The notes under the pieces: generated by a model
Databases searched by the model: none
Seen by the model: the letters and a program-made list of their open reading frames with translations, nothing else
What the model was told of the DNA's origin: nothing
Origin: an uncultured Acidimicrobiaceae bacterium
Lineage (GTDB): Bacteria; Actinomycetota; Acidimicrobiia; Spongiisociales; SHLN01
Reading direction: 5' to 3'
Assembly (NCBI GenBank): GCA_947259275.1
Contig: CAMYMH010000012.1
Span: forward strand, 1-64,000
DNA length: 64,000 nt
In this document: piece by piece, positions 3,300-21,007 of the stretch
How positions within the stretch are numbered: the first letter of the stretch is position 1
How the letters are laid out: every line of letters starts with the position of its first letter
Program-made: the position numbers and the translations under genes

Positions 3300-3375
3300 C
3301 GCATAATCACGGTCGCCTCACCCTCCCGGCGGCGTTGAAAGCGCACTAGATCCGGCAGTTATGCGCCGTCGCCGC
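3300..3375 (+). repeat. Repeat B, copy 1
   Basis: It begins with GCATAATCACGG and runs through GCGCACTAGATCCGG to ATGCGCC at 3361. Closely matched by copies at 17230 and 20939. The ATGCGCC box is 94 nt before the GTGCCG box of A copy 3. Confidence 0.75.
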
Positions 3376-6641: not shown

Positions 6642-6859
6642 CAGCACTCCTTCAGTGTGGGGGAACGGGCCAGAACTCACCATTTGCTCCATTCAGTATC
6701 GGAGCCAGCCAGACGCTAGGACGGTCCCGACGGATCATGCAGTTCCTGCAGCCGCCCATATCACTCATGCAGCCACACCATGTGGCGCACCCCCACCTAC
6801 GCGATAACCGGCAATCACGAGCGCCCTTCCGCCCGTGGCCACCTAGCTCCGATACCACG
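6642..6859. other. Intergenic region, no gene seen
   Basis: About 220 nt between the lipoprotein start and the element-end-like site at 6860. It probably holds the lipoprotein promoter. CCGCCCATATCACTCATG at 6753 is vaguely like the middle of an A repeat but lacks the other boxes. Confidence 0.4.
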
Positions 6860-6892
6860 CACGATAAGTGAGGATATGGGGGTTATCGGGGG
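6860..6892 (+). repeat. Site like the left end of the recombinase module
   Basis: GTGAGGATATGGGGG followed by TTATCGGGGG at 6868-6892 matches GTGAGGATATGGGGG plus TAATCGGGGG at 17913-17937 with one base change, and the preceding ACGCACGAT is also shared. Same orientation, 11 kb apart. Confidence 0.8.
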
Positions 6893-6925
6893 CCCGGGCG
6901 ATATCGCCCGTATTTGGTGAGAACA
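6868..6925 (+). repeat. Repeat A, copy 6 (hybrid)
   Basis: The right half is standard: GGGCGATATCGCCCGTATTTGG with GCG at 6898 and TGAGAA at 6918 in place of TGATCT (20 nt). The left half is the module-end motif, with its GTG at 6868, 30 nt before GCG instead of 29. CGGGCGATATCGCCCG is a 16-bp palindrome. Confidence 0.75.
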
Positions 6926-14875: not shown

Positions 14876-15161
<286 letters not shown>

Positions 15162-15225
15162 GTGCCGATCCCGAGCACACTGAGAAGTGTGCGATATCGT
15201 CCGAGATGTGGGTGATCTCGGGTGG
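15162..15225 (+). repeat. Repeat A, copy 9
   Basis: CGAGCGCTAC precedes GTGCCGATC at 15162, as in copy 3. GCGATATCG at 15191 (29 nt); TGATCTCGGG at 15213 (22 nt, subtype II spacing). The variable middle forms a hairpin, GCACACT/AGTGTGC. Confidence 0.85.
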
Positions 15226-17206: not shown

Positions 17207-17229
17207 CGACCGATTCAATCGCAGCCAAC

Positions 17230-17300
17230 GCATAATCACGGCCACCTCACCCTGTCTGCGCCGTTGCAGGCGCACTAGAACCGGTAGATATGCGCCATGG
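17230..17300 (+). repeat. Repeat B, copy 3
   Basis: CGCATAATCACGG at 17229, then GGCGCACTAGAACCGGTAG and ATGCGCC at 17290, 96 nt before the GTGCCG box of A copy 11. Begins about 23 nt after the stop of the preceding gene. Confidence 0.75.
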
Positions 17301-17883: not shown

Positions 17884-18001
17884 TGGCCCATGCTCGCATG
17901 AGCACGCACGATGTGAGGATATGGGGGTAATCGGGGGCTTGTTTTGTCGACGGTGGGTGGGTGGTGGTGGACTTTGGGTGGTGGTCCCGTCGGGGCCGGA
18001 A

Positions 18002-19050
18002 ATGGATGCCCGCATGTTTTGGTCCCCGTGCTTGGTTCGTTGGTCGCCGTCGCGTGATCGGGTGCATATGAAGCTCGGCCACGAGTTGGTTGATTCCTAT
18101 CTCGAGTTTCTGGCTGCCCGTTGTCGTCCGAACACGGTGCTGGCGGCGGGGCATGATTTGAAGGTCTTCTTCGCCCTGGTCCCGAAAGAGCCCGCTGAGG
18201 TGAGTACGGCTGATGTGTTGGCGTTTATTACCGCGCAACGGTCGGCGGGTGATCCGAAGGTGGTCCGGTTGTCGGATGGTGAGTCGGGGTTGTCGTCGCG
18301 GACGATCCAGCGGCGGTTGTCGTCGTTGTCTAGTTTGTTCTCGTTTCTGGTGACCCGTGGTGATGTGGCAGTCAATCCGGTGCCGCGGGGGTTGTCCACC
18401 CGCCGGTCCCGGCAGCGGGGTGGGCGGGGTGTCCCGTTGATTCGCACCCCGCGAACGTTGCCGCGGGTGGCGGATCCCGCTGAGGTGGATGCGTTGTTGG
18501 GGGCGTGTCGGACCCGGCGGGACCGGGCGATGTTCGAAGCGATGGTGCTGGGTGGGTTACGCCGCTGTGAGGTGTTGGGCTCGAGGATCTGGACGCCGTT
18601 CACCGGCAGGTGTTCATCGTCGAGGGTAAAGGTGGTCATCAGCGCCGGATCCCGATCTCGGCTCGATGGTTCACAACAGTCGGTGATTATCTGCAGGCCG
18701 AACGACCCCGGGAGGTGTCCACGGATCGGGTCTTTGTGGTGTTGAAGGGCCCCCGCCGCGGCCAACCACTCTCAGATGAGGGACTCAAGCAGGTGTTCGT
18801 CTCGGCGCGGGAACGGGCGGGGCTGCGGCGGATCACCTGCCATGAGTTGCGCCACACCTGTTTCACTCGGCTGCGGGAGGCCGGCATGGAGTTGGAAGCA
18901 CTCCAAGCCCAGGCTGGGCATCGTTCGATCGAGACCACCCGCCTGTATGTGCACCTGGCGAATGAGTGGCTGGCCGAGGAGTATCACCAAGCCGCCGCCA
19001 TCATCGACGCCGATCTGTTCCTGGCTGCTGCCGAGGAGGTGGGGAAATGA
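18002..19050 (+). pseudogene. Tyrosine recombinase (first of pair), frameshifted
   Basis: The N-terminal part starting at ATG 18002 (or 18068) carries a SAM-like core-binding domain and the first catalytic Arg in GGLRRCEVLG. Near 18580 the frame is lost. The true continuation reads LEDLDAVHRQVFIVEGKGG in another frame and contains HELRHTCFTRL and GHRSIETTRLYVHL, so the H-x-x-R, H and Tyr residues are present. Compared with relatives the GLRLED turn is missing a few residues, consistent with a small deletion of 3n+1 bases. It ends at TGA 19050, overlapping the ATG of the second recombinase by 4 nt. Either dead, or needing a frameshift to be made. Confidence 0.85.
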
Positions 19051-20333
19051 CAGCCCCAGCGTTGACGACAGCCGAGTCGTCGGCGCCGGGTCGGCCCCGG
19101 CCTCGCGAGTTCGACTGGTCACAGATCGCCGAAACGGCGCCGGTGTTGGCGGCAACGATGCTGCGCTACCTCGACCAGATCAGCCTGTCGCTGCGTCCAG
19201 CCAGTGTGCAACGCACCGATGGGATGCTGCGCGGCTTCGCGGGCTGGCTCACCGCCAATCATTCCGACATCGGAGCCTTGGTTGACGTTGACCGCAGTCA
19301 TATCGAGGCGTTCAAGCAATACCTCCCGACCCGGGCAGGCAAGAGCGGCCGGCCGCCACTATCACCGCAGACGATCCGGATGACCCTCGGCACGCTGCGG
19401 ACGTTCTTTGAACGGGTTTCGGAATGGGACTACCCCGACGCCCCCCGGCGAGTGTTGATCTTCAACGGTGATCTCCCCACCCCTGATGATCCGCTCCCCA
19501 AGTTCCTCACCGACCCTGACGCGGCCAAGTTGATGCGCGCCGCCGCTGGGGCTGAACCAACTCAGCGGTTAGTGATTGAGATGCTGGCCCGTACCGGGCT
19601 ACGAGTCGGGGAACTATGCGCACTCACCAGCGACGCGGTGGTCAGAATGAACGGCCGGCATTGGCTCCGGGTCCCGATCGGGAAGCTCCACAACGACCGG
19701 TATGTGCCGCTCCATCCCCAACTAGTTGAGCTCCTCGAGATACACCGGGCTGGTCGTGGTGATGACATCGATCGGCTCATCACCTGGAAAGGCCGGCCCC
19801 TCAACCGGCATCAGATCACCCGCATCCTCAACCGGGTCGCCAAGACGGCGGGGATCGGTCACGTCCACCCCCATCAGCTGCGTCATACCCTCGCCACCCA
19901 AGCCATCAACCGGGGTATGAGCCTGGAAGCAGTCGCGGCCATGTTGGGTCACAAGACACTGCGCATGACCCTCGTGTATGCCCGAGTCGCCGACCAAACC
20001 GTCGCTGACGCCTACGACCGTGTCAGCGACCAAGTTGATGCCCTCTACACCAAACCATCCGGCCTCCGATCTGACGGGACCGGCTCGGCGGGCATGACCC
20101 AACTAGCGGTCGAATACCACCAGCGGATGCTCGGCAACGGTTACTGCAACCGGCCCACCCAACTCGACTGTCAATTCGAATCGATCTGCGAATCCTGCGC
20201 CTACTACTCGACCAACACCAGCTTCGACCCCGTCCTCCAAGCCCAACGTGACCACGCCGCCGACCGAGCCCAACACCACCGGGTTGACCTCTTCGAAATG
20301 CTCCTCAACCGCAACCAACAGGCCACCCCGTGA
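19047..20333 (+). CDS. Tyrosine recombinase (second of pair), intact
   Basis: A 428-residue XerC/D-type recombinase. It has an N-terminal core-binding domain (about 30-130) and a catalytic domain with Arg186 (TGLRVGELCAL), Lys213 (PIGKLHNDRYV), His276 and Arg279 (HQLRHTLA), His302 (LGHKTLRMT) and nucleophile Tyr311 (LVYARVAD). The tail has Cys367, Cys375, Cys381 and Cys384, a likely zinc-binding knuckle as in Tn554-type TnpB proteins. ATG 19047 overlaps the stop of the first recombinase (ATGA), so the two are translationally coupled. All catalytic residues are present, making this the candidate enzyme for the array. Confidence 0.92.
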   Translation: MTAPALTTAESSAPGRPRPREFDWSQIAETAPVLAATMLRYLDQISLSLRPASVQRTDGMLRGFAGWLTANHSDIGALVDVDRSHIEAFKQYLPTRAGKSGRPPLSPQTIRMTLGTLRTFFERVSEWDYPDAPRRVLIFNGDLPTPDDPLPKFLTDPDAAKLMRAAAGAEPTQRLVIEMLARTGLRVGELCALTSDAVVRMNGRHWLRVPIGKLHNDRYVPLHPQLVELLEIHRAGRGDDIDRLITWKGRPLNRHQITRILNRVAKTAGIGHVHPHQLRHTLATQAINRGMSLEAVAAMLGHKTLRMTLVYARVADQTVADAYDRVSDQVDALYTKPSGLRSDGTGSAGMTQLAVEYHQRMLGNGYCNRPTQLDCQFESICESCAYYSTNTSFDPVLQAQRDHAADRAQHHRVDLFEMLLNRNQQATP

Positions 20334-20384
20334 CCCTCGATTACCCCCATATCACGAAATCGTTTGACACGATTACCCCCATAA

Positions 20385-20448
20385 GTGCCGCTCTCGCGCA
20401 CTTTGGGAACTGGGCGTTATGGCGCGAGATCAGGGTGTTCTTGGGCGG
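20385..20448 (+). repeat. Repeat A, copy 12
   Basis: GTGCCGCTCTCGCGC at 20385; GCGTTATGG at 20414 (29 nt); GAGATCAGGG then TGTTCTTGGGCGG at 20436 (22 nt, subtype II). CTCGCGC at 20392 pairs with GCGCGAG at 20422. The recombinase module ends exactly at its first box. Confidence 0.82.
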
Positions 20449-20468
20449 TTGAGGCGGGCTGTCCGTCA

Positions 20469-20935: not shown

Positions 20936-21007
20936 CGCATAATGACAGTTACCTCCCCCTGTCAGCGCCGCCGAACGCGTCCTAGATCCGGCACTATCTA
21001 GCGCCCT
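20936..21007 (+). repeat. Repeat B, copy 4 (no A follows)
   Basis: GCGCATAATGACAGTTACCTC at 20935-20955, then CCTAGATCCGGCACTATCTAGCGCC to 21005. No GTGCCG/GCGATATCG pair follows in the next 60 nt before the VOC gene, so this may be the truncated right edge of the array. Confidence 0.7.

Follow-up and report, generated by a model that had tools for sequence, protein, structure and literature searches.

A two-gene tyrosine recombinase element inserted at the GTG of a cassette-array repeat in an uncultured Acidimicrobiaceae bacterium

Background

The closest described systems are the Tn554-related tandem recombinases of actinobacteria (the Famint36/Famint41 group) described by Van Houdt et al. 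in 2012 (PMC3414803). The section of that paper on these elements marks the Tn554-related actinobacterial group by one abnormally long recombinase (611-828 aa), lists a pREL1 pair as Tn554-related and lacking TnpC, and gives no ends or targets for the Famint36/Famint41 group. Further afield are the strand-biased circularizing elements (SE), with four genes and a 6-bp spacer, and the RIT elements, with three recombinases and 34-bp terminal repeats (PMC10214605).

Here we analyse a pair of adjacent recombinase genes that lies in an array of small genes separated by a repeat (repeat A), within a 64,000-nucleotide stretch of DNA from an uncultured Acidimicrobiaceae bacterium (the window). An earlier sequence-only reading had taken the pair and its inverted ends either for the mobilising machine of the array or for a transposon that targets repeat A.

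Results

Positions 17913-20387 form a compact element of about 2.5 kb, with one left end and two inverted copies of this end at the right (Table 1). These borders are exactly those proposed in the sequence-only reading, and the last GTG is indeed the start of GTGCCG in a copy of repeat A. At the left the order is GTG, AGGA and the arm TATGGGGGTAATC, while at the right a single A separates the terminal arm GATTACCCCCATA from the GTG. The left and right terminal arms match perfectly as inverted copies, and near-matches to the end motif are strongly enriched in the window (4 observed against 0.12 expected). The element carries no repeat A of its own.

Table 1. Positions of the element, its target and the associated features (window coordinates unless a locus is named)
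Feature	Position	Strand
GTG core, left copy (spacer positions 2-4 of the 8-bp spacer)	17913..17915	+
Left 13-bp recombinase arm TATGGGGGTAATC	17920..17932	+
ORF1, the shorter tyrosine recombinase; loss of 7 bp near 18579 shifts the frame	about 18014..19050	+
ORF2, intact; 428-aa tyrosine recombinase with a Cys-rich C-terminal tail	19047..20333	+
Subterminal right arm copy GATTACCCCCATA, 32 bp inward of the outer arm	20339..20351	-
Right terminal 13-bp arm GATTACCCCCATA	20371..20383	-
GTG core, right copy (shared with the start of the target A repeat)	20385..20387	+
Target repeat A, cut off from its left flank by the element	20385..20451	+
Hybrid site that joins an element left end (6872-6888) to the right half of an A	6867..6920	+
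308-aa XerD-like recombinase, L170	6404-7330	
308-aa XerD-like recombinase, L172	3200-4123	
308-aa XerD-like recombinase, L173	4747-5673	
308-aa XerD-like recombinase, L186	9604-10509	
308-aa XerD-like recombinase, L219		
308-aa XerD-like recombinase, L222		

The space between the ends is filled by two recombinase genes, which leaves no room for more. The tandem pair noticed earlier is thus present, but only its second member is intact: ORF1 lacks 7 bp found in a second copy of the element on contig C89 (TTGGG-CTCGAGG in the window against TTGGGGCTGCGCCTCGAGG), so that its reading goes on in another frame. An assembly error may be the source of this deletion. For ORF2 the expected catalytic residues and the Cys-rich tail were recovered: the protein matches Pfam Phage_integrase, its R, HxxR, H and Y motifs are those of an active tyrosine recombinase, and the tail (CX8CX5CX2C) is common to its relatives. 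Calling an integron integrase (IntI) only above 265 bits for TIGR02249, the window proteins scored 45.9 and 51.2 bits and stayed below this cut-off.

A scan of genome contigs yielded 42 loci with relatives of the pair, of which the nearest (71-80% identity) are found in actinobacterial MAGs and further ones in Nocardioides, Tetrasphaera, Micropruina and Rhodococcus. The ends could be mapped in 18 copies; throughout, 13-bp arms (left and right differing at 0-2 positions) would enclose a spacer of 8 bp at the predicted junction of the circle, and in most of these copies spacer positions 2-4 are identical at both ends. For the window's element the predicted junction reads GATTACCCCCATA-AGTGAGGA-TATGGGGGTAATC. 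Since loxP has the same geometry of 13-bp arms around an 8-bp spacer, we regard this junction as a putative loxP-like site. The borders can be considered precise because identical Rhodococcus elements occur at different places, one of them reversed in the same kind of target. The Rhodococcus elements and the two Nocardioides soli copies appear to share one target stretch, lying in what we take to be an IS3-type transposase gene. Judging from the flanking sequences, several of which come from metagenome assemblies, subgroups of the family differ in target.

Three further ideas about the family were dropped. The CGCCGGTT target of L058 and L063 gave 27 forward against 15 control matches (at most 2 mismatches), which is too weak for a repeated array site. 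A junction promoter composed of the TTGACA near many right ends and the left end has no convincing -10, and phage records gave no match at E 1e-30 that would speak for a phage origin.

Searching the genome with the element sequence revealed, besides the full copy on C89 (79% DNA identity, with ORF1 intact), short left-end pieces on C25, C38 and C32 and in the window itself (6858-6893). The latter belongs to a hybrid site (Table 1) that is probably a decayed copy of the element. On C25 a right-end-like sequence follows 0.76 kb past the left-end piece, with an unrelated gene between them. A unit of this composition (element left end, unrelated gene, right-end-like sequence) was noted at L008 4907-5695 and is possibly a non-autonomous derivative with cargo.

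To what extent the element targets repeat A can be read from its flanks. When the two flanks in the window are joined, an intact A is restored (nhmmer E 1e-14, with a profile built without that copy). The left ends on C89, C25, C38 and C32 all abut sequence that resembles the left flank of A (top 0.6% of GTG flanks); for the copy in the window this flank is a weaker match (top 18%). All seven A-associated left ends, including the hybrid at 6867 and the closest foreign relative (L029), have the same orientation, and in L029 the element ends on GTGCCG. These results support the earlier idea of a transposon that targets repeat A, for the clade of the window's element. The core in this clade is GTG, with one case of GTT on one side.

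The pair is present in 4 of the 138 genomes of the order and all four carry A arrays (Fisher p 0.025, ignoring shared ancestry). Three clade members from other genomes (L030, L031 and L032) had to be rejected as A-type insertions: their sites carry the same GTG or GTT core and gave no match to the A profile. For this reason we consider A targeting established in the window's own genome and suggested in one other (L029). The A profile gave no match for L056 either, a weak result as the joined flank is slightly short.

A second, unrelated element uses the same triplet. At about 626-2030 of the window, an A copy has an IS110-type element inserted at its GTG. The left end of this element recurs at a GTG on C89 and another on C38, and C70 and C51 seem to have IS110-like right ends ahead of A copies. 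Two unrelated machines therefore strike the GTG of A, which makes this triplet the likely crossover point of the repeat.

Repeat A itself occurs in about 40 copies in this genome (profile search), clustered on several contigs and single on others. It separates small, mostly co-oriented genes in the window (1-23000) and on C4, C9, C24, C26, C89 and C95. Within the order, A matches were obtained in 56 of 138 genomes with the same type of search. Given that the pair is found in 4 of them, A arrays mostly exist without it, and relatives of the pair often occur at places with no A match. Folding of A like an attC site was not borne out: the copies tested had z-scores between -0.5 and -3.1 and shared no fold.

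A palindromic second repeat of about 70 bp is located at 3300-3370, 17229-17300 and 20936-21000 of the window; GCATAAT...TATGCGCC is shared by two of these three copies, and at two places the repeat lies about 90 bp upstream of A. Separately, the minus strand at 14876-14930 resembles a tRNA gene's 3' half and is a possible old attachment site; across the window ARAGORN detected no complete tRNA.

Several genomes of the order contain a 308-aa XerD-like tyrosine recombinase inside their A arrays (Table 1), which in L219 and L222 starts about 100 bp after an A repeat. Its best match is XerD (137.6 bits, below the cut-off of that family), and it reaches 74 bits for the integron integrase against the cut-off of 265. 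It is present in 11 of the 138 genomes, 9 of which have A (Fisher p 0.005, ignoring shared ancestry), and is absent from the window's own genome. In that genome no integron integrase scored above the cut-off, the best match being a Xer-type gene with 66.5 bits; the two best Xer-type genes adjoin what we presume, from reading the translations, to be a FliA-type sigma gene and an alanine dehydrogenase gene. Across the 138 genomes no integron integrase matched at E 1e-60, a threshold at which the control likewise matched nowhere.

Discussion

Very probably, we are dealing with a small Tn554-related transposon of two genes, which would circularise and insert at the GTG of repeat A without being an engine of the array. 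From the end architecture, the common GTG, the identity and orientation of the target, the homology of the pair and the broken ORF1, all read from the sequence, we infer the following course. The two recombinases would act together and pair the two ends of the element, giving a circle with the loxP-like junction. This circle would recombine with a repeat-A box at its GTG triplet, by strand exchange within the 8-bp spacer, after which the element would have the right part of A beside its right end and the left flank of A beside its left end. Because ORF1 is broken, the window copy is probably immobile by itself, and the intact copy on C89 could in principle move it in trans. Overall, the element appears to exploit the many copies of repeat A as landing sites, and resembles a parasite of the array more than its engine.

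That the tandem recombinases nonetheless drive the array, shuffling A-bounded cassettes in cis or in trans, is a reading we hold to be highly improbable. The presence of A arrays in all pair-bearing genomes of the order would fit it, as would the resemblance of single A copies to the arm motif (for instance GATGTGGGTGATCT in the copy at 15162). However, the pair is lacking in 52 of the 56 A-bearing genomes, its relatives occupy other targets, and the element splits one A copy rather than standing at the end of the array. The arm motif itself is not significant in the A consensus (p 0.17); even though the mean best score over 29 copies exceeds that of shuffles, these copies are mutually related, and for both reasons we do not claim the motif for A. 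The sequence-only reading's 'mobilising machine of the array' is consequently not upheld: A arrays without the pair and related pairs away from A, both named there as speaking against it, were each found.

It is likewise improbable that the module is an ordinary cassette, inserted through A by a separate array recombinase while its own recombinases do something else. Its borders do fall exactly on the cassette-boundary triplet, and the XerD-like gene shows that another recombinase is present in A arrays of other genomes. Against this, the module has perfect inverted ends of its own, ends of the same kind flank relatives at unrelated, A-free targets, and it has no A repeat to bring along. Returning to the preferred reading of a transposon landing on A, the array's own recombinase may instead be the 308-aa XerD-like protein, a better candidate than the pair. 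We propose tentatively, as something possible rather than probable, that repeat A belongs to an undescribed cassette system of the order that is free of an integron integrase and run by a XerD-like recombinase, and that its GTG serves independently as landing site for the tandem-recombinase transposon and the IS110-type element.

Integron attC sites are parasitised in a comparable way by IS1111-attC elements and group IIC-attC introns. The likeness is that a cassette array is entered specifically at its recombination site; the difference is that another enzyme class is at work here, and that the status of repeat A as an attC site is only putative.

With the Famint36/Famint41 elements, as far as the relevant section of PMC3414803 describes them, the element shares two adjacent and homologous tyrosine recombinase genes and the lack of TnpC. 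Compared with the pREL1 pair (WP_003943780 and WP_006359314), ORF1 is 58% identical over 332 aa and ORF2 52% over 421 aa; judging from protein sizes and the lack of TnpC, this pREL1 locus is presumably the one listed. The long recombinase of the Tn554-related group is not found here, as ORF2 (428 aa) is without about 185 N-terminal residues of its 611-aa pREL1 partner. Short forms of ORF2 also occur elsewhere, for example in Nocardioides pCHL (412 aa). The element is therefore probably a short-ORF2 variant related to this actinobacterial group and working like it. Tn554 sensu stricto has a third gene, tnpC, which is absent here as it is in the Famint36/Famint41 group.

The SE and the GInts resemble the element in tyrosine-recombinase mobility, target specificity and inverted end motifs brought together at the junction of the circle (predicted in our case), yet it has two genes and an 8-bp spacer where SE have four and 6 bp, and partner genes of the Tfp/GinC and Srap/GinD types are absent. 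RIT elements share co-directional tyrosine recombinases with inverted ends but differ through their RitA, RitB and RitC trio, against two recombinases and 13-bp arms here.

Neither these ends nor the repeat-A target were found in the open-licence literature searched. The recombinase family itself is already known; what is new are the mapped ends, the loxP-like junction predicted in 18 copies and the subgroup-specific targets. A poorly characterised recombinase family is hereby given exact ends and a predicted loxP-like core, which opens its mobility to direct tests in culturable Rhodococcus or Nocardioides, and the likely crossover triplet of repeat A is pinpointed.
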